DNA of 25,524 nucleotides. Source: a virus. A program made the position numbers and the translations under genes. Numbering within the stretch: the stretch's first letter is position 1; every line of letters starts with the position of its first letter. The stretch covers positions 1-25,524 of IMG/VR virus record IMGVR_UViG_3300032047_000115; one strand, written 5' to 3'. The notes under the pieces were generated by a model. It ran no database searches. It was not told the origin of the DNA and was given only the letters and a program-made list of their open reading frames with translations. Below, one piece after another: positions 5,305 through 20,969 of this stretch.

Positions 5305-8300
5305 TTACTTAGGTATGTTTATAAGCTCTTCTATGGCATCATACCTACCATATTTACCATAAGATTTACGATCCAAGCGTGTTTGAATCTTTTCAGCTAG
5401 TTTAGGATTATCATACATTAATTGTTCCATAGCGTTTTTACGCTCTTCTACAAAAATTTTATGTACATCTTGATAAAATCTCTGTTCAAAAATCTTATCA
5501 TTTTTATTTCTTAAACCTAAACGCTTGTATTCATCAAGATCATTACGCCAAACTCCTCCATCTTTCATAAGCTCTTCAAGCCTATAACGTAAGTCACCCA
5601 TAGACATATATCTTTGGATCTCAGACATCTCATAAGAGTTTAACCGTACACCATTATAAGTAGCTAGTATCTTAGGGACATCAAAACTCATCTCTAAAAG
5701 ACCTTTTTTAACAGGATCATCATCAGACCAGCTGATTGCAATAGGACTTAACCCATTAAACAACCTCATTAAAGGGTTCTCTGGGGGTGGATAATACTTC
5801 TTACCAGTACGATCTTTACTTAAAATATCATATTTAGGAGCAAGTGTAGACTTAGCACCTAACTCTCTTCTTGCTATATATTCAAGGATATTGTTAGCTT
5901 CTTTTTCATTAGCATCAATTATTCTACCAAGTTGATTAGATAGACCAGCATAAGGTAGAAGCTGTGGTCTTAAGAAATTACCCGCAATTCTTTGGATATT
6001 CTTCTCACCACCTTCTTTCCAGTTTAACAGTTCACCTAAATCTGCTACTCCTGCTAACATAGATTTATCTACAATAACAGCTGTAGTCATAAACATAATC
6101 TTACTAATAGCTTCATCTCTATAGTCTTCACCTAGTAGATGCTGATAGTTAAGTACATTTGCAGTAGCAGCTAGTAGTGTGTTGAATGGTTCTATATCTC
6201 TATATGAGACATAAACATTACCTAGTTTAAATGAATTAGGTTGAATACCATTAGCTTTCCATTGCTCTCTAGTAGTTTTATCTGCGGGTATATCCCCAGT
6301 TAAGTTACCAGTCATAGCAGCTATAGAAGCTAATCCTATAATTGTCCGACCCATACCCAAACGACCTTTTAAAACCGCTTGTTCATATTCAATTTTTTCT
6401 GGTTTTATACCATACTTTTTAAGTAATGTTGCTGGATCACCTCTCATTATATCTTGGTATCTATGTTGGAATCTTACCAACTCAGTATGACCAAAGGCTA
6501 ATTCCAAAGCATTATAACCTGTTTTAACGAATGGGAAGAATGCTCTTAATCCAGTACCATGACCCACTTCATTTAAGAATTTAAACCTACCTTCAATTGG
6601 TTTGGTTAAGGCAGCTTCATCACCAGCCAGTCTTGTTGCTTGATCAGAAACAACCCATCTTTCAACACCTGCTTCATCTGTTCTACGTTTGAATATCATA
6701 TTACGGAACTCTTCTTCCATACTTCTAGCTAACGCTAACGGGTCTTCAATATCAAGCTTACCTTCATCAACTAAATTCATAATTGTTCGGGCAGCTTCAT
6801 TACGCATTTCCATACGACCAATAAGAGTTCTAGCCATAGCATCACCAGCACCCATAGCATTTCTACTATAAGTCATCCAAGGTGATGTGTTTATTTGAAC
6901 TAGACTATCCATTGCTTCATATAGATGCATTTGATCTTTATCACCTTGCCTTCCGATATACTCCTTCATCTCTTGCCAATGTTTTAAATCAGTATCAAAA
7001 GAATAGTTAGTAGCATAATCTTGTTGCTTACGATTAAGACCTAAATCCCAGTTATGCTTGAACATTTTCAAACTTTCAGACCAAGCATCACCTAATGCCT
7101 GTACTTGAGCACCTGCTAAAAACATTTCTCGTTTATTACCTCCCATCCAAGCTCCTAAATAAGCCTGAAATGGACGTAATATACTAATAAAATTAGTACC
7201 TACAATAGCTTTGAGGGGTGTTTTTAAACTACTTAAGACAGAATTATAGTAAACAGAACGGGCTTCCATACGCCACCTACCTGTTATCTGATCTCCATCC
7301 ATACGACCCCCTTTAATAAGAGCGTCAAAGTACTCGTGAAGATGAGCCATAGTTCTGACTTTACCATTAGTTGCAGCATAAAGAGCCATAAGATCTGCTC
7401 TCTGCTCTAGTGTACCTTCTTTAGCTAAACGAGCTAACTCATCAAAATGTTCATTAGTACGTTGGTTTATTATACTTAAATCTTGCTGAATTTTTCTCCT
7501 AATATCTGTAGGATCTAGTTTAGATTTTCCAGTAAATCTCTGCAACTCACTACCAGCCATGTAACTAGCTTTCTTCATTTCAAGCATAGACACTTTCATA
7601 GCATCAAATATTTGATCAGCTTGTCGTATCAAAGAAACACCTTTAGGTGCATCTAAAGTACCTTGAGCTATTAGCTGTACTCTTTTAGTTAAACTATTAG
7701 TAACTAAAGTGAGAGCGTGGAATGCTGAAGAGTTTACAGTTTCTATTGTTAAACCATCATAGCTATATACAGTTTTATTATCTTTATCAAGTTTAATCCA
7801 CTTTTCAAGATTTTTGGATACATCTCCTTGGTTAAGACCTTTAGATACTTTACCGTCTTGGAACAAGACCTCGTACATCTCTTTAGACTGCCTTAACAAA
7901 GACTCTTGTATATCAATCTGATCAAGAGTATTTTTAGGAGCTTCCCAGATTTCTCGTGAAACATCCTCAACAACTTCTTTAATATACTCAGCTAAGGCTT
8001 TACTACCTCCAGCCATTCGTTTGATCTGGCTTTCTAAGAATATTTGAGTAGCAGCTGGGTTATCACTTCCTTTTCTAAAGTTACCAACAGTCTCTTGGAT
8101 AGCTTTTTTTACAGCAACTTTAGGATCATCTAAAGGTATAGTTGCCTTTTCAGACATATCAAAAGATTCACCATTATTAAAAGGTGCTGGTTTATTTTTA
8201 GCTTTTGCTGATTGAAGAGAACTCATTTTCTCTTGCTCATTCCAGAAATCACTTTTACTAGCACCATTCTGTTTAGCTAAATCTTCTAGCTCATCTAATT

Positions 8301-10245
8301 TAGTAGTAATTTCTAAATCAGTATCAACTCTACTTAATTCAAGTTGTTGCTCAGGGAACCAATAAACACGTGCTTGGTGTGCTGGTACATCTCCTCTTGC
8401 TGCAACTTTATAAGTTAAACCTCCATAACCTAGTTCAGCTATCTCATCATTAAGACCTTCTATAAAATCTAAGACTCGATCTGAAGTAGCTTGAAGTTCA
8501 AGAGGATCTTCAACTCCTTTATTTTTTTGTTCTAAATTCCAAGCTTGCCTTTCTCGTATCTGTTCTACACTATCAAGACGTTCTCTAGGATAATAACCAT
8601 AACCGTTTTCTTTAGCTGCTGCTATTAATTCAGCATAAGTTATCTCAGTATCTTTAGCCCATAATCTAGGCCATCTGTCACCTAAAGCCTCTTCCAGAGG
8701 ACTGACTGCTTCTTCTTGTAACCTTTGTCTACGAAGAAGATTAGCTAGTTTAGTCCTAGATTTCCAAGGTATCTTTTCATCAGCATCAAGCAACCTAACT
8801 GGTCCTTTTCTGTCAGCATATATACCATCCCCCATAGGTACTCCTGGGGTTTCATCTACTCTATAGACAACACGATTTTGACCTCTATTATCTAAACGCC
8901 AAACTTCACCTTGTCTTGCACCGAGTTTGATTCTTTCTGAAGCAGAGACACTTAAATTATCTGTGACATAGAAACCATCACCGAATAAGTTCTCATCACT
9001 CCATACACGTTCTTGACCAGTGGAGAATTTCTCTTTAAAACCTTGAGGAAGCTTATCACCTTCATAACCTAAAGGTTTACCAAAGCCATCCTTCTTTTGT
9101 TTATAAGGTACCCCATGCCAGTATACTGAGTTATTACTAATACTGCGTAGATTACCTTCTTTTAATTCTTTGTATGTATTAAACTCTTCTGGTGAAAGAT
9201 AAGTTCTTAAATAACTATTCCAAAGATCAGTAGGTATACCTTGACCTGTTTCAAGTTCTAGCTGCTTCATACTATCATTAGCGAAAGCTTGCGCCTTCTC
9301 ACCTTCTTCGATAGTCTGCATAAGCTTAGTAGTACCAGCCCTGTTAGCTTCTTCAATAGTACTACCATTAGCCCTTGACCTTATAGCAGCCCATTTACCA
9401 CGAGCTAAACCTACAAGAACATAACCACCTAGATTAAAACCAGCACCAGCAAAGACAGTTTTAATCCTTGCTGTCCAAGAGTTATCCTTTTCAGGATCAA
9501 CTGCTAATGCTTCAGAGAAAGGTACCCAAGGAGCATACTGATTAACCAAGTTTGCCATGTTGGCATACTCTGAGCTTTCAGAAACGAAATCTGCAATAGC
9601 ACCTTCAGTTCCAATTTTAACACCTCTAGGTAGGAAAGCTATAGTCCTAGCACCTCTCTTGGTTTTTAACAGACTACCGACTATAGGTATTTGACGACCT
9701 ACTCTACCAGTTCTACTTGCTTTATATAAGCGGTGTGAAGCTTTAGCAGCAAGTTTATTTGCACCTAAAACTTTTCCTCCAATCCCCCATGTAGCAGCGT
9801 CTAGTGCGACAAACTCTACAATACCACGTGTTAGTTTACCTAAGCCTGATTGGTTTGCAGGCTCCCAGTTATCAGGGATTTCAAAGGGATTTTCTACATC
9901 ATATTTTTGATGAAAAATGTTTTCTTCATCTTGCATCGGTAAGCCATAGGCTTTATGCATACCCCATCTAGCGGTATCATAAATGCGTCTACCAAAGCCA
10001 CCGACACTTTCAACAGCATCAACTCCACCACCCCATAGGGCTTTACCAGTTTCTTGAACTAATTCTACAGGATTATCAGGAAGAAAGCCCATATCTTTAG
10101 CAGCCGTAGCTGCTTGCTCTTCTTCCTGTTCCACTTGTAACTGCTGCTGTTCTGCAAGAACGTTAGCTCTTTCAGCAATAGCTTCTGTACTGTAATGAGA
10201 AAGGTAGTTCTCTTCTTCTGGCGGTGTATTAAGTTCTTCGTCCAT
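5305..10245 (-). CDS. Internal virion protein gp16-like, ejected core protein with ART-like region
   Basis: A 1646-aa protein in the T7 gene 16 position, between gp15 and the tail fibre (T7 gp16 is 1318 aa). By analogy with T7 it is an inner-core protein ejected first to form the conduit for DNA across the envelope. The N-terminal ~60 residues are acidic and Q-rich. I see no T7-type soluble lytic transglycosylase domain at the N-terminus. Residues about 373-640 resemble phage ADP-ribosyltransferase domains: 'YWHGVPY' (His377), 'LFGDGFYVTDN' (Tyr426), then 'ELGYGGLTY' (604-612) and 'ARVYWFPEQQL' (625-635). Where such domains often carry Glu before the last strand I see 'HQAR', so activity is uncertain. 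Hydrophobic stretches at about 263-283 and 1299-1316 could contact membranes. The C-terminal third is predicted largely helical. ATG 10245 follows the gp15 stop by 5 nt. The gp16 role is firm by position; the ART-like call is inference. Confidence 0.88.
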   Translation of the reverse strand: MDEELNTPPEEENYLSHYSTEAIAERANVLAEQQQLQVEQEEEQAATAAKDMGFLPDNPVELVQETGKALWGGGVDAVESVGGFGRRIYDTARWGMHKAYGLPMQDEENIFHQKYDVENPFEIPDNWEPANQSGLGKLTRGIVEFVALDAATWGIGGKVLGANKLAAKASHRLYKASRTGRVGRQIPIVGSLLKTKRGARTIAFLPRGVKIGTEGAIADFVSESSEYANMANLVNQYAPWVPFSEALAVDPEKDNSWTARIKTVFAGAGFNLGGYVLVGLARGKWAAIRSRANGSTIEEANRAGTTKLMQTIEEGEKAQAFANDSMKQLELETGQGIPTDLWNSYLRTYLSPEEFNTYKELKEGNLRSISNNSVYWHGVPYKQKKDGFGKPLGYEGDKLPQGFKEKFSTGQERVWSDENLFGDGFYVTDNLSVSASERIKLGARQGEVWRLDNRGQNRVVYRVDETPGVPMGDGIYADRKGPVRLLDADEKIPWKSRTKLANLLRRQRLQEEAVSPLEEALGDRWPRLWAKDTEITYAELIAAAKENGYGYYPRERLDSVEQIRERQAWNLEQKNKGVEDPLELQATSDRVLDFIEGLNDEIAELGYGGLTYKVAARGDVPAHQARVYWFPEQQLELSRVDTDLEITTKLDELEDLAKQNGASKSDFWNEQEKMSSLQSAKAKNKPAPFNNGESFDMSEKATIPLDDPKVAVKKAIQETVGNFRKGSDNPAATQIFLESQIKRMAGGSKALAEYIKEVVEDVSREIWEAPKNTLDQIDIQESLLRQSKEMYEVLFQDGKVSKGLNQGDVSKNLEKWIKLDKDNKTVYSYDGLTIETVNSSAFHALTLVTNSLTKRVQLIAQGTLDAPKGVSLIRQADQIFDAMKVSMLEMKKASYMAGSELQRFTGKSKLDPTDIRRKIQQDLSIINQRTNEHFDELARLAKEGTLEQRADLMALYAATNGKVRTMAHLHEYFDALIKGGRMDGDQITGRWRMEARSVYYNSVLSSLKTPLKAIVGTNFISILRPFQAYLGAWMGGNKREMFLAGAQVQALGDAWSESLKMFKHNWDLGLNRKQQDYATNYSFDTDLKHWQEMKEYIGRQGDKDQMHLYEAMDSLVQINTSPWMTYSRNAMGAGDAMARTLIGRMEMRNEAARTIMNLVDEGKLDIEDPLALARSMEEEFRNMIFKRRTDEAGVERWVVSDQATRLAGDEAALTKPIEGRFKFLNEVGHGTGLRAFFPFVKTGYNALELAFGHTELVRFQHRYQDIMRGDPATLLKKYGIKPEKIEYEQAVLKGRLGMGRTIIGLASIAAMTGNLTGDIPADKTTREQWKANGIQPNSFKLGNVYVSYRDIEPFNTLLAATANVLNYQHLLGEDYRDEAISKIMFMTTAVIVDKSMLAGVADLGELLNWKEGGEKNIQRIAGNFLRPQLLPYAGLSNQLGRIIDANEKEANNILEYIARRELGAKSTLAPKYDILSKDRTGKKYYPPPENPLMRLFNGLSPIAISWSDDDPVKKGLLEMSFDVPKILATYNGVRLNSYEMSEIQRYMSMGDLRYRLEELMKDGGVWRNDLDEYKRLGLRNKNDKIFEQRFYQDVHKIFVEERKNAMEQLMYDNPKLAEKIQTRLDRKSYGKYGRYDAIEELINIPK

Positions 10246-10250
10246 GTTAG

Positions 10251-13200
10251 TTAGTTAGTTTTGGGCCTCCATTCCCAGTGCCATGATTCTTTCTCATTAT
10301 AATTGAAATCCCCACGGTCTTCAAAAGGATAGAAGTTAAATTTAGAAGCGTTATTATATAACCAGTTCAAACCATCTTGACTTAAATAGTTTATATCTAT
10401 AGCTTTACCAGTATTATGCATTGAATGTCCAGCTTTTTTACTTCTATACTTTTCTGGATTCCAACCTGGATCACCTTTTTTAAGTCTATTTTCTTTTGCT
10501 ATAAAAGCTTCATCAGTATCACTTAGATATTCGGCACGTTGATGTGCTACATTACGGAAACCAGAGTTCAACTTAAAGTCAAAGCCAGCTTCTTTAGCAG
10601 CTGCAAACAAGCCTTCTACATCTGGTGCAGCATCTTTATGTACCTTGACATCCATTTTAATCCCTTCTTGCTCATTACTGAATCTAACAAGATTACCTAA
10701 ATGTGATACATCCACTAAATCGGCATCAGTTATTTCTCGTACCTCTTCAGGTACATCAAGGAAACTACCGTCAAACATAGGCTCTTGACCTAGTATATTA
10801 CTTAATACACTTATCTTTTCTCTTTGCCTATCTTTTGGATTCATAAGTTCACTAGAATTTACCCATCTATCAGTACTTCTAGCTTCTTGTAAGATCTCAT
10901 AATACCTTTCTTTACCTAATAACCTTTCAGCTGCGTTACTAAAATCAGTAAAGCGAACATCAGCAAATAATAGAGGTGAGTTTGCTAAATCAGGTGATAC
11001 AAGTGACTGTTTATAGTTACCTATATTATTCAAGACAACTAACTTATCTTTTGCTATTTGTAAATTAGTTTGGTATAGCTTATGTAAAGGATTTTCAGGC
11101 GATACTTTATTCATACCCATCATTGCGTTCAACTCCATATTAGCTAACCATAAAGGTTTTGCATAAAAAGGAAGTCGATCATATTGTTTTTGTAGGATAA
11201 TGTTTTCTTCTCTAGTAAATTCTCTTACATCTTCTAGTCTACGAGCTATAGGTACTTCTCTTTCTTCCATCCGAGTTATATACTCAGTCAAACCTTCGAT
11301 AGTATCAGGTATAGCATCTCCAAGAACATCACCTCCCTCTACCTCAGGAGCACCCTCATCATCATCAACAGGGATAAAGCTTAACTCATCAGTTAAAAGT
11401 TCTGGATCAAAGTTTCCTGTTATATATGATTTCATACCAGCAAAGGTATAATTATTTAACTTTGGATCACTCCAGTTTTCTAAATTCTCTTCACCAAACT
11501 TCATAGCAGCTACAGCCATCCTAATAGATATTTCTCTATTATCAGATTTAGAATTAGCTAGTTCTACCATTTTAGTGGCTTTAGCTACCGTTGCTTGATA
11601 TAAAAGTTCAGGATTATCAATAAGCTCTTGATAGCTAACATCAGATTTTAAACCTGCTTCTTGTAAAACAGTTTTATATTCGGCTTCTGATACTAAGATA
11701 TTTTCTGGAAGGGGATTATCGAAATTAGGATTCATTGCAGCTACTAAAGCTGAAGGTTCTATCATACCTCTTTCATCCATAATACGTTTAATAACCTTTT
11801 TATTACCTGCCGCAATACCTTCACGTTGAGGAACAGTTAGACTCATAAGCCAATCTACTTCTGCTTGTACTTCTGGAGGCCATTTCTGTGGCTCTACTCC
11901 TTCAGTTAATTCAGCTTGATAGTTGTATAAAACTTGAGCAGGTCTTTTGAATGGATCTTTTTGAGCTAATGTAGTCCAGATAGGATCTAGTCTAGTACCA
12001 TCAACGCCAAACTTTGTTTCAAAGGCTTCTGGCTTTAGACCAAAACTTACATCCTTATAATAATCACCTTCATAGTTCTTAGCATCTAAAGCTATCTTTC
12101 TAAATATTTTATCGTTTTTCTTTGTTAGATCTACTGATTTATCAACTTTTGTACTAGGAGCTAGATTAAAATCATCATAGGCCCAACGATCTGTACCTGT
12201 ATCATACTTATAAAGATTTGGTATAGGAAGATCATGGTTAGTGTCCCGTTTCCCATCATTATCCCAATCAAACGCTTGCATGTGTAGTTGTGTAGCTTGA
12301 TTTAAAGCATCTATTCTACTCATACCTTGTTCATTTTCTAGCCTTTTAGATTCTGTGGTAATAAAGGCCCATGATTTATCTATAATTTTTTGAGATTCAG
12401 CTACATTCTCATCTACTCTAGCTACTTTATAAACTCTTTTTTTAATCTTATTCAATAGCTGTTCTGAATATGTTTCTTTAACAGCTTTTTCTTCTGTAGT
12501 TCTTAAATAAAGTTGATCAACTACTACCTTATCCTTTCTGAATTTATCTTTAACATCTTCAGAAAAACGATTCATCTGAGCTTCAGTTATCTCACCACCT
12601 TGGGATGCTACAATATTGTTTCCCGTTTCTGTAGCAAGAGTATCATCTCGGATGTGCTTAGATTCGTTAATTTTTTTACGAAAATTTGCAACTAGACTAA
12701 TAACTTCTGGAAACTGTTTATATTCATTTTCTAAATCATCTAATAATTTATGAGCACCTGTAGTATCTAAAGGGTTCTCAGGATCATTAGTACGCCATCT
12801 CGCAAATATCTCAGCACCTCTATCGGTAACTAAGGTTTTTACATTTCTATTCTCTTCTTCTACTTTTTTGTAATGAGCTTTAATAGAATCAGCTACAAAC
12901 TTTTTAGTATCAAAAGCTTTCCAAAGTTCTGGAAGAGTTTGCCCTCCTTTTGGTGTTAAACCTTTGATATAAATCTTTGTAGTATCAAGAATATCAGCAA
13001 GCACAGCTATGTTATCAATATTATCATCTTCAGATGCAATATCTTTAAGCATACCAAGTAAAAGGTTATTACCAGTTTCTTTAACTGTACCATCTAACTC
13101 TCTACCATATGATAACTGTTTAGCTAAACTAGGTAAAACTTGTATTGAATGTTTAAGTTCCTTTATGAATTGCTTTTTACCTTCTTCACCGTTGCTAAAA

Positions 13201-14114
13201 AGGTTTGGTATACTAACTTCAAAATTTGATTTAATAGCTTGTATACTTTCTCTACCAGCTTCTCTTGTGTTCTCTTCTAAAACTTCTTGTTGGAATTTAC
13301 CTGTTGCATCAACAATAGTTTTGGTTAAGTAAGTATTAACAATATGTTGATCAAAGCCGTAGCTATTATCTTTTACATATTCACGTTGAACATGAGCAAT
13401 AATCTCATCTTGAGTTTCAGGATCATAGTTCCAGAACTGACTTACTGTTACCTCTTTACCTGTGCTAGTTGTAATTGTTTTTAATGCTAATGGTTGCCCA
13501 TCTGGACCAAGAGGATTAGCAGTTAGTTCATTTATAAGATGACCTTTCCATCCTCTACTAGCTTCAATTAAAAGACCTCTTCTATAACCCCAAGCAACAT
13601 TACTACCCATCTTACGGATGTTTAGTAACTTTTGCTTTTCTTGTAAAGTAGCTCTATAAGCTTTAGCTTCTAGCTCATCTGTTTTTTCTATAACAGCACC
13701 GAACTGTTTTTGAACAGCATCATTTATTTTAGCAGTTTGAGCCTTAGACAACTCCATGTAAGCCTGTGCTTCTGGATCACCTTGGGCTGCTTTCGCTCCC
13801 ATCACAAGACCTTCTTCTCTTTTAGCGTCTTGATGAGGTTTATAGATTTTTTTAGCAGCTGTATCTAAAGCTGTGTTTAGAGTATCACTGAACTTAGCTA
13901 ATTGTTTTAGCTTATAGTCATCATTACCAGCAGCTATACCAGATATACGATTTAACTCAGAACCAATAGAATTAGATTGCCTAATCATTTCATTAACTGA
14001 ATCAACTCTATCCTTGTCTGCTTGCCTTGCTTTCTGTGCAAGCTTGTTGGAGTTTGTGATAACTCCTGTACGGCCTCTATAGCCTGTACTACGTGTTTGT
14101 CTTTCGTATGCCAT
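10251..14114 (-). CDS. Internal virion protein gp15-like with C-terminal M15 (VanY-like) peptidase domain
   Basis: A 1287-aa protein in the T7 gene 15 position (747 aa in T7). Residues 1-~1150 are mostly charged and predicted helical, as expected for an ejected core protein. The last ~134 residues look like a zinc D,D-carboxypeptidase / L-Ala-D-Glu peptidase of MEROPS family M15. They contain 'NSGFRNVAHQ' (about 1183-1192), 'SMHNTGKAID' with ligands His1233 and Asp1240, and 'ESWHWEW' with Glu1276 and ligand His1279 (the E-x-x-H signature). All expected catalytic residues are present. The likely role is local cutting of peptidoglycan cross-links during DNA ejection, a job T7 gives to the transglycosylase at the start of gp16. 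ATG 14114 lies 6 nt after the gp14 stop. The gp15 role rests on position; the M15 domain rests on motifs. Confidence 0.9.
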   Translation of the reverse strand: MAYERQTRSTGYRGRTGVITNSNKLAQKARQADKDRVDSVNEMIRQSNSIGSELNRISGIAAGNDDYKLKQLAKFSDTLNTALDTAAKKIYKPHQDAKREEGLVMGAKAAQGDPEAQAYMELSKAQTAKINDAVQKQFGAVIEKTDELEAKAYRATLQEKQKLLNIRKMGSNVAWGYRRGLLIEASRGWKGHLINELTANPLGPDGQPLALKTITTSTGKEVTVSQFWNYDPETQDEIIAHVQREYVKDNSYGFDQHIVNTYLTKTIVDATGKFQQEVLEENTREAGRESIQAIKSNFEVSIPNLFSNGEEGKKQFIKELKHSIQVLPSLAKQLSYGRELDGTVKETGNNLLLGMLKDIASEDDNIDNIAVLADILDTTKIYIKGLTPKGGQTLPELWKAFDTKKFVADSIKAHYKKVEEENRNVKTLVTDRGAEIFARWRTNDPENPLDTTGAHKLLDDLENEYKQFPEVISLVANFRKKINESKHIRDDTLATETGNNIVASQGGEITEAQMNRFSEDVKDKFRKDKVVVDQLYLRTTEEKAVKETYSEQLLNKIKKRVYKVARVDENVAESQKIIDKSWAFITTESKRLENEQGMSRIDALNQATQLHMQAFDWDNDGKRDTNHDLPIPNLYKYDTGTDRWAYDDFNLAPSTKVDKSVDLTKKNDKIFRKIALDAKNYEGDYYKDVSFGLKPEAFETKFGVDGTRLDPIWTTLAQKDPFKRPAQVLYNYQAELTEGVEPQKWPPEVQAEVDWLMSLTVPQREGIAAGNKKVIKRIMDERGMIEPSALVAAMNPNFDNPLPENILVSEAEYKTVLQEAGLKSDVSYQELIDNPELLYQATVAKATKMVELANSKSDNREISIRMAVAAMKFGEENLENWSDPKLNNYTFAGMKSYITGNFDPELLTDELSFIPVDDDEGAPEVEGGDVLGDAIPDTIEGLTEYITRMEEREVPIARRLEDVREFTREENIILQKQYDRLPFYAKPLWLANMELNAMMGMNKVSPENPLHKLYQTNLQIAKDKLVVLNNIGNYKQSLVSPDLANSPLLFADVRFTDFSNAAERLLGKERYYEILQEARSTDRWVNSSELMNPKDRQREKISVLSNILGQEPMFDGSFLDVPEEVREITDADLVDVSHLGNLVRFSNEQEGIKMDVKVHKDAAPDVEGLFAAAKEAGFDFKLNSGFRNVAHQRAEYLSDTDEAFIAKENRLKKGDPGWNPEKYRSKKAGHSMHNTGKAIDINYLSQDGLNWLYNNASKFNFYPFEDRGDFNYNEKESWHWEWRPKTN

Positions 14115-14120
14115 AGTTAA

Positions 14121-14870
14121 TTAACCCGTTACTGTTCCAGTTGACCAGTTCAAATCTTTCCAGAAGTTCTCACCACCAATAGCTGAACCAGCTGAAACAG
14201 CCGTTGTAGCACCACTGAGGATTGGGCCTAGTATAGATGGTTTGCGTGGAGTAGCTTGCATTATAGGTTTGATAGGTTCATAAGAAGCAGCTTTCTGGGT
14301 AGCAATACTCTTAGTTGAGTTAATAGCAGCTACATCTGCTGAGTATTTATCCAGATCTATACCATATTGTTCTATAGCATAGGCTCTGAATACAGAATCT
14401 TGTGATGCATCTATCTGTGCTTGTTCAAACCCAAACTCTCGTTCAGCACCTTGTAATAATGCTGCTAAACTGTTACCACTTTGGGCACCACTAGCAAGGA
14501 TTTCACCTTGTGCTGCTATAGATTTAGCTAGGTTATCTTGTGTTTTGAAAGCTTGTTCTGCCAGTTTCTCATTCTTCTCAACCTGTGCAGCTACAGAAGC
14601 ATTGTCAGCATTTATCTGATTGTTCTGTCTGACAGCAGCTAGTTCTGTTTGAGCAGCAGCATCAGCTTTTAGCTCTCTTTCAAATACATCACCTTTTAAT
14701 TTGTCATTATATTCAGCGATTGTTAATTCATTAGCATACTTAGTTGTTGCTGCATGATTAGATCTTAATACCGCATCTCTTCGGGCTGCATAAGCAGCGT
14801 TTTGCTCTTGTATACCCGTAGCAGCTTGGGCAGCTCCAAGTGCTATTGATACAGCTAGTGTTGTACACAT
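14121..14870 (-). CDS. Internal virion protein gp14-like
   Basis: A 249-aa protein in the T7 gene 14 position (196 aa in T7). The N-terminus 'MCTTLAVSIALGAAQAATG' is hydrophobic and Ala-rich. A long Ala/Gln/Glu-rich helical region follows (about residues 20-190), then a Gly/Ser/Ala-rich tail. This composition fits T7-like gp14, a core protein thought to insert in the outer membrane during ejection. Its ATG overlaps the end of gp13 by 16 nt, so the two are probably translationally coupled. I recognise no catalytic motif; the name rests on order, size and composition. Confidence 0.8.
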   Translation of the reverse strand: MCTTLAVSIALGAAQAATGIQEQNAAYAARRDAVLRSNHAATTKYANELTIAEYNDKLKGDVFERELKADAAAQTELAAVRQNNQINADNASVAAQVEKNEKLAEQAFKTQDNLAKSIAAQGEILASGAQSGNSLAALLQGAEREFGFEQAQIDASQDSVFRAYAIEQYGIDLDKYSADVAAINSTKSIATQKAASYEPIKPIMQATPRKPSILGPILSGATTAVSAGSAIGGENFWKDLNWSTGTVTG

Positions 14871-20454: not shown

Positions 20455-20607
20455 TTACAAGGTAGTCAAAGCTTCTTCAATCCCAATATCTTCTTCAAGA
20501 TCATTGAGTTCTTTAGTTGCTTCTTTAACTTGCTCTACCTGTTTAGCTTTAACAGCTTCAGGCTTAGGGTTGTTAGTTATAAAACTGGTGGGTATAGCGT
20601 TATCCAT
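20455..20607 (-). CDS. Small acidic protein of unknown function (50 aa)
   Basis: The ATG at 20607 overlaps the stop of the upstream beta-barrel gene (TAATG), which argues for coupled translation and a real gene. The product is 'MDNAIPTSFITNNPKPEAVK...' with a Lys/Glu-rich, probably helical middle (residues 18-40) and an acidic C-terminal part. I do not recognise it. It lies just before the capsid gene and could be a minor assembly or accessory protein; this is only positional inference. Confidence 0.65.
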   Translation of the reverse strand: MDNAIPTSFITNNPKPEAVKAKQVEQVKEATKELNDLEEDIGIEEALTTL

Positions 20608-20969
20608 TAGAAACTATACTTAGCTCCAGCTTTAACATTGTAAACATTATCGAAGTCGCCAGCAGAAATACCAGAGAACTCACCATAGAATGCTAACTTA
20701 TCTGTAGCATTAAGGTTAGCTCCGATCTTTCCAGAGAGTTCAGTCTCAGTACCGTCAACACCATTAGCTGCTAGTACTGTTGGACCACCTTGTACATAGT
20801 AGGCAACTTTATCTGTGCCTCCTTCGTAACCAACGTGGATGTCTATAGCTCTAGCTACATATTCAGAACCAACATGACCTTGGTTCAATTCTGTGTTAAC
20901 GTATACGCCAGCGGTTGCAGGTGCAGACGCTAGAGTAGTTGCTGCGAGAGCAAGTGCAATTGTTTTCAT
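20607..20969 (-). CDS. Secreted porin-like / outer-membrane beta-barrel-like protein (120 aa)
   Basis: The first 20 residues are a textbook signal peptide: 'MK', a hydrophobic Ala/Leu stretch, then 'APATA' with an A-x-A cleavage site before Gly21. The mature ~100 aa alternates polar and apolar residues in strand-like blocks ('VYVNTELN', 'AIDIHVGYEG', 'VAYYVQGGP', 'LAFYGEFSG', 'YNVKAGAKYSF'). It ends in Tyr-Ser-Phe, the C-terminal aromatic signal of outer-membrane beta-barrel proteins. It likely folds in the host outer membrane as a small barrel. It has no T7 counterpart. Its ATG is 4 nt after the stop of the 18-aa leader-peptide gene and has no Shine-Dalgarno of its own. Possible roles are envelope modification, superinfection exclusion or solute permeability; none can be chosen from sequence. 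Confidence 0.8.
   Translation of the reverse strand: MKTIALALAATTLASAPATAGVYVNTELNQGHVGSEYVARAIDIHVGYEGGTDKVAYYVQGGPTVLAANGVDGTETELSGKIGANLNATDKLAFYGEFSGISAGDFDNVYNVKAGAKYSF

Follow-up and report, generated by a model that had tools for sequence, protein, structure and literature searches.

Does an internal virion protein of a T7-like cyanophage carry an enzyme that could act on the host at entry? This question is raised by the 25,524-base stretch analysed here (IMG/VR record IMGVR_UViG_3300032047_000115, positions 1 to 25,524), referred to as the window, which is a fragment of such a phage and encodes on its minus strand a gp16-like internal virion (ejection) protein of 1646 residues (5305..10245). 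A first-pass annotation, made from the sequence alone, had claimed that this protein contains an ADP-ribosyltransferase (ART)/PARP-like domain, and the analysis reported here supports that claim through an ART-type fold in the model of a homologous domain and the invariance of two key residues, H377 and Y426. The best reading of gp16 residues 361-655 (window 8281..9165, minus strand) is that they represent a subfamily of ARTs with an H-Y-Q triad, which in marine podoviruses has become part of the T7-type ejection protein. At a probability of roughly two in three, we propose more specifically that this domain is an ART of the H-Y-[EDQ] type (H377-Y426-Q634), which is carried as a passenger of gp16, ejected, and modifies host macromolecules at entry.

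An additional domain within gp16

The gp16-like open reading frame matches the phrog_6651 'internal virion protein' profile over residues 20-1637 (E 2.3e-241), and this whole-protein match, together with the gene order gp14-gp15-gp16, places it among the T7-type gp16 proteins. When it was aligned with gp16 of P-SSP10, 9515-10a and NATL2A-133, which are among the nearest named phages (36-38% identity across 78-79% of gp16) and are without the domain, the window protein proved to be longer by a single, cleanly bordered block of about 276 residues, and two anchor columns that are 163 residues apart in P-SSP10 are separated by 439 residues in the window. The ART-like domain lies between two conserved parts that are also present in phages without it, an N-terminal part (residues 1-360; 9166..10245, minus strand) and a C-terminal part (residues 656-1646; 5305..8280, minus strand). 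Metagenomic relatives bear the block at the identical gp16 site, including L008 and L009, which are 54% identical across the whole protein.

In a core tree of 17 hand-picked gp16 sequences, the 11 ART-bearing proteins cluster apart from the ART-less ones with a bootstrap value of 89, so that within this sample a single gain, or a single loss in sister lines, would be enough to account for the pattern of presence. The domain was also found in more distant gp16-like proteins; for one of these, L032, the conserved part has its matches in phages of Pelagibacter and Roseobacter. Given such distant carriers, the change may have gone in either direction. Relatives of the domain were found only with profiles: a single-sequence scan of viral contigs with the window domain returned none, and tblastn with the window, L010 and L028 domains found no relative in 50,697 phage records. 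A profile scan of genome contigs gave one locus, which is located on a contig of a Cyanobium metagenome-assembled genome (L110). In one carrier, L069, the gp16 frame ends directly after the ART domain (609 residues compared with 1586 in the close relative L070), which is either a real short form or an assembly error.

A conserved His-Tyr-Gln pattern

The four motifs on which the first-pass annotation had based its claim are present in the order given, YWHG at residues 375-378, FGDGFYVTDN at 421-430, ELGYGGLTY at 604-612 and ARVYWFPEQQ at 625-634, within a region (residues 373-640) that corresponds to window positions 8326-9129 on the minus strand. To follow them through the family we used an alignment of 55 sequences. 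It consists of 43 of 64 extracted regions (including L110), which remained after removal of near-duplicates and of the truncated L037, completed by the window itself and 11 of the 16 gp16-type loci L008-L023, with L015, L016, L020, L022 and L023 left out as near-duplicates; the other loci from the profile scans are mostly repeat views of contigs already included, or partial matches. Seven residues, H377, G378, G422, G424, Y426, Y461 and H623, are unchanged in all 55 sequences. H377 (9115..9117) is the predicted NAD+-binding histidine in strand 1 and belongs to motif I (Y-W-H-G), and Y426 (8968..8970), in motif II (GDGFYVTD), is the predicted tyrosine in strand 2; in the model of the homologous L010 domain described below these strands are E25-29 and E57-60. 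The invariance of H377 and Y426 is what the earlier proposal had asked of homologous proteins. Y461 (8863..8865) is an additional invariant tyrosine and H623 (8377..8379) an additional invariant histidine ahead of the penultimate strand; all of these codons, as well as that of Q634, are on the minus strand.

The first-pass annotation had also remarked that the final glutamate of many such enzymes was not evident. There is indeed no glutamate, but the position is not absent and is occupied by Q634 (8344..8346). Three ART clades are distinguished, H-H-h, H-Y-[EDQ] and R-S-E, as described in PMC9503650 and PMC7955679, and since the second of these permits a glutamine, Q634 is a valid third residue and the doubt raised by the missing glutamate can be dropped. 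The window domain with H377, Y426 and Q634 thus shows the H-Y-[EDQ] pattern. It does not show the R-S-E active site of T4 Alt or VIP2-type enzymes, its invariant residues being a histidine and a tyrosine, and the name Alt-like was rejected, as Alt belongs to the wrong clade. The glutamine is found in 14 of 14 gp16-type sequences, a hand-picked list, while in the remaining 41 the third position is a serine in 22, a glutamine in 12, an aspartate in three, an alanine in two, a threonine in one and a gap in one.

The domain is under purifying selection, with ratios of non-synonymous to synonymous substitutions (dN/dS, NG86 method) of 0.11-0.37 in all six close pairs and of 0.39 and 0.59 in two distant pairs. 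In two close pairs the ratio is higher for the ART domain than for the remainder of gp16 (0.29 versus 0.10 and 0.37 versus 0.19); in the other four of the six it is not clearly raised.

An ART-type fold in a homologous domain

The fold was assessed on L010, a compact homologue that occupies the same site of the same gene and is 39% identical to the window in the domain. An AlphaFold2 model of the L010 domain, built from the 55-sequence alignment, reached a predicted local distance difference test score (pLDDT) of 74.2 and a predicted template modelling score (pTM) of 0.75, and places the histidine in strand 1, the tyrosine in strand 2 and the glutamine just ahead of the last strand. In a Foldseek search of the PDB with this model, the only match below 0.001 was chain B of entry 9k3a, 'Cyanophage A4 pre-ejectosome' (E 1.4e-4). 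VIA-align ranked the same chain first (Z 11.6, root-mean-square deviation 3.6 across 161 residues, chain residues 1420-1605), and ranks 2-50 among the 50 matches listed were PARPs, tankyrases, MbcT, NatT, RES toxins, cholix and an anti-CRISPR protein, with Z-scores of 5.1-7.4. MbcT, NatT and the RES toxins are ART-fold enzymes, and the anti-CRISPR protein, at rank 29, is presumably AcrIF11, an ART. When the L010 model was compared with predicted structures of viral proteins, the top matches were large phage proteins, one of them named for a polyvalent-protein domain, together with a protein resembling ART-PolyVal (E 3.7e-3).

We take chain 9k3a_B to be ORF27 of Anabaena phage A-4L, which within the matched range has H1426, Y1448 and, at position III, a valine at about 1594. 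Given the structural match and these two residues, the ejection core of another cyanobacterial podovirus has already provided an experimental image of an ART-like domain. The A4 domain (YHG...GSGTYF) resembles that of the window in residing in an ejection protein of such a phage; it differs in that the phage family and the overall protein are others and in that the domain is near the C terminus (1420-1605 of 1717). A sequence-level match of the window family to the A4/A-4L domain was not found (hhalign E 0.096). Sequence searches of the PDB were similarly without result: phmmer with the window domain gave no relevant match, a profile of the whole gp16 found no relative, and with the family profiles A3, A5 and A6 the ART matches were all below significance (Chelona toxin 0.033-0.26, PARP16 0.038-0.078, and PARP4) and lay amid designed helical proteins.

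Relation to catalogued ART families

In Pfam the family comes close to two catalogued ART families, DUF3990 (PF13151, ART clan) and ART-PolyVal (PF18760). DUF3990 is listed among the ART-clan Pfam families, and ART-PolyVal sequences are used as known ARTs, in PMC7955679. DUF3990 is matched below its cut-off by L028 (1.6e-5), L034 (3e-5), L035 (9.6e-5) and L031 (8.2e-4), none of them scoring above 25.7 bits where 32.2 are required, and by L024 and L030 at no better than 0.07-0.26. ART-PolyVal is matched by L028 (6.4e-4), L034 (2.3e-3) and L035 (1.6e-3) with 19-21 bits against 31.2, and neither family is matched by L008, L010, L017 or L033. As the curated cut-offs are not reached, filing the domain under either name was rejected; it belongs to a subfamily that is missed by current Pfam profiles in the window and half-seen in relatives. 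One protein of 3028 residues, L041, combines a canonical ART-PolyVal domain (4.9e-16), LPD22 and a window-type domain in one chain; its two ART domains, at residues 696-831 and about 1443-1692, belong to different subfamilies, and it also has a HETAH motif. In alignment A6, 35 of the 55 family members weakly match PDC-M13B, an unnamed PADLOC candidate-defence model (best E 5.1e-6), which hints that a related domain may be present in defence systems.

A proposed role at entry and its alternatives

According to PMC8954989, T7 gp16, of which about four subunits are visible in the virion core, is ejected, its C-terminal part has been assigned to the cytoplasm of the host and binds DNA there, and the inner core of P-SSP7 has been reported gone after attachment. 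PMC5512222 argues along the same lines, with delivery at entry, for T4 Alt as well as for the polyvalent proteins. In the window, a hydrophobic segment identified in a hydropathy scan (residues 263-281; 9403..9459, minus strand), a candidate membrane segment, is located about 80 residues before the ART domain and matches, by a very weak alignment, the segment before the cytoplasmic part of T7 gp16. From the behaviour of T7 gp16 and from this position behind a hydrophobic segment we infer delivery at entry: the ART would be carried as a passenger module of the internal core protein gp16, the core would be housed in the head until its ejection as infection begins, and would bring the ART into the cytoplasm together with the DNA-binding part of gp16. 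There, a few gp16 copies could use host NAD+ catalytically for the mono-ADP-ribosylation of host macromolecules, most likely proteins, and this modification would precede phage gene expression.

The alternative that survives best is that the domain has the ART fold but is inactive and is kept for a structural or binding function in the core or the DNA-translocating hub. This would be in keeping with its residence in a structural protein, with the variation at position III outside the gp16 group, and with the solved A4 domain, which keeps the histidine and the tyrosine yet has a valine at the third position. We nevertheless consider it unlikely, since H, Y and Q are all retained in the gp16-type sequences though overall identity to the window goes down to 28-45%, and since the nearest named relatives do without the domain altogether. 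Moreover, PMC7955679 counts PARPs that have I, L or Y as their third residue among the active mono-ARTs.

It is also improbable, though conceivable, that the enzyme acts on NAD+ pools, as a glycohydrolase or phosphorylase resembling MbcT or the RES toxins, or on a defence protein as an anti-defence ART. MbcT is at rank 2 in the VIA-align list, in which NatT, RES toxins and the anti-CRISPR protein also appear, but the Z-scores in this list are tied within noise. The weak PDC-M13B matches and the two close pairs with a faster evolving ART domain would fit this alternative, against which stand the four pairs that lack a clear acceleration, and with few copies delivered, the depletion of NAD+ would seem less economical than the modification of a scarce target. 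Finally, a chance resemblance, in which an unrelated alpha/beta insert happens to contain H, Y and GYGG motifs, could appeal to the sub-threshold Pfam scores and to the unsuccessful modelling of the window's own sequence. It is largely refuted by the family-wide invariance of H and Y, by the way in which the L010 model follows ARTs strand by strand, and by the fact that intermediate members match two different profiles of the ART clan.

Several observations count against an H-Y-Q ART that is delivered with gp16. The window domain has no ART profile match in Pfam (including ART-PolyVal and DUF3990) or NCBIfam, the Pfam matches of its relatives fall short of the curated cut-offs, and the third residue is not kept across the wider family. 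The window's own AlphaFold2 model, built from 19 sequences, is poor (pLDDT 57.7), and Foldseek and VIA-align searches with this low-confidence model found nothing ART-like. Hence the structure prediction that the first-pass annotation had called for yielded an ART-like fold in the homologue whereas the window's own model was uninformative, and the split beta-sheet ART fold was found on the L010 homologue only. Even for the L010 model, Foldseek reaches PARPs with non-significant E-values (2.7 for tankyrase), and their Z-scores, at 5-7, fall within the range that VIA-align calls common; however, all 50 VIA-align rows listed are of ART type, which we regard as weightier than middling Z-scores by themselves. 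The existence of named relatives without the domain means that it is not essential to this kind of phage. Lastly, the sequence homology of the window gp16 to T7 gp16 is very weak, which makes the cytoplasmic placement uncertain; the mapping onto T7 gp16 residues ~390-412 comes from a weak hhalign match on a neighbouring stretch (E 0.045, probability 1.2%). The synteny of a complete T7-like virion module speaks in favour of the proposed reading.

Comparison with known systems

Head-packaged ARTs such as T4 Alt and ARTs in podovirus polyvalent proteins are already known. Alt is likewise packaged in the head, injected with the DNA and active early (PMC5512222, PMC9503650). It is, however, a separate protein of the R-S-E clade (PMC9503650), whereas the window domain is H-Y-Q and part of the ejectosome, and Alt is therefore comparable for delivery only. 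The ARTs of phage polyvalent proteins (ART-PolyVal, PF18760) share more features with the window: as described by Iyer et al. 2017 (PMC5512222), they belong to the ART superfamily with an H-Y-[acid/amide] site and are found within large, virion-delivered multidomain podovirus proteins, sometimes beside zincin-like metallopeptidases. They differ from the window and the gp16-type members, which do not match PF18760, in their carrier, which is an N4-type RNA polymerase or a MuF protein rather than a T7-type gp16, and in the third residue, which is an aspartate in the family as published in PMC5512222 and a glutamine in the window gp16. As to polyvalency itself, the window gp16 has one recognised enzymatic domain, ten loci add a zincin-like insert, and L041 is clearly polyvalent.

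With gp16 of T7 and P-SSP7, the window protein shares its nature as an internal virion protein and its position after gp14 and gp15, and its core is 28% identical to P-SSP7 gp16 across residues 876-1612. T7 gp16 carries a transglycosylase at its N terminus and lacks an ART, while in the window a VanY peptidase is on the gp15-like protein and the ART on gp16. A literature search, with most subscription papers lying outside it, did not turn up any description of an ART within gp16 of the T7 type. New here are the subfamily missed by profiles, gp16 as the carrier protein, an insertion site with variable cargo, and the neighbouring zincin insert in relatives.

A possible docking site for cargo enzymes

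In ten of the fetched loci (L013, L014, L016-L023) a further insert with a HELWH motif follows directly after the ART domain. This zincin-like insert of about 260 residues, with HELWH at residues 709-741, is found in one gp16 clade and is not present in the window gp16; in L017 it weakly matches the Pfam family ATLF, an anthrax-lethal-factor-type domain (0.0025). Zincin-like peptidases of polyvalent proteins are thought to release effector domains by cleavage (PMC5512222). The gp16 proteins of the isolates P60 and S-CBP42 have a different sequence at what, judged by eye, seems to be the same site. The P60 stretch (L116, residues about 372-530) has the ART-like motifs YHATS, GSGVYTAND and LFDPSQV, and S-CBP42 is 75.5% identical to it. 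Its assignment to the same family was set aside, as it matches the window-family profile only partially (domain E 7.4e-4 in a 93-protein set) and a Pfam search gave no match, and related ART-like cargo in these two phages is a lead only. It is tempting to speculate that one point in gp16, after the candidate membrane segment, docks cargo enzymes, namely the H-Y-Q ART, the ART with a zincin, the P60/S-CBP42 sequence, or nothing at all, although we hold this idea tentatively and think it somewhat doubtful.

The surrounding virion module

The virion module is encoded on the minus strand and comprises portal, scaffold, psbA, a Phage_OMP barrel protein, capsid, tube, nozzle, gp14, gp15-like protein and gp16, beyond which a long open-ended reading frame is, by position, the tail-fibre gene. 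The psbA gene within the module matches Pfam Photo_RC at 1.7e-90, and the outer-membrane beta-barrel of the Phage_OMP type (120 residues; 20607-20969, minus strand; Pfam 3.8e-38) is located between capsid and psbA. The gp14-like ejection protein (14121..14870, minus strand) was identified by a match to Pfam T7_gp14 (E 3.5e-11). The gp15-like ejection protein (10251..14114, minus strand) has a C-terminal VanY D-Ala-D-Ala carboxypeptidase domain (residues 1157-1284, window 10263-10646; Pfam E 1.7e-12), and it appears that the cell-wall enzyme, which in T7 is on gp16, is here seated on the gp15-like protein. In A-4L, ORF28, which occupies the place equivalent to the window gp15-like gene, bears a Peptidase_M23 domain.

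Implications

If there is indeed a docking site in gp16, the ejectosome would double as an effector-delivery device, the payload of which evolves separately from the DNA-translocating core. The family alignment makes this ART subfamily recognisable in data where current profiles fail, and natural phages with and without the domain are available for comparison. A named domain and three residues are now at hand for the study of cyanophage takeover of Prochlorococcus and Synechococcus in the first minutes of infection. If the domain is active, some marine T7-like phages would alter their host before transcribing any gene, with the DNA-ejection machine as the carrier.

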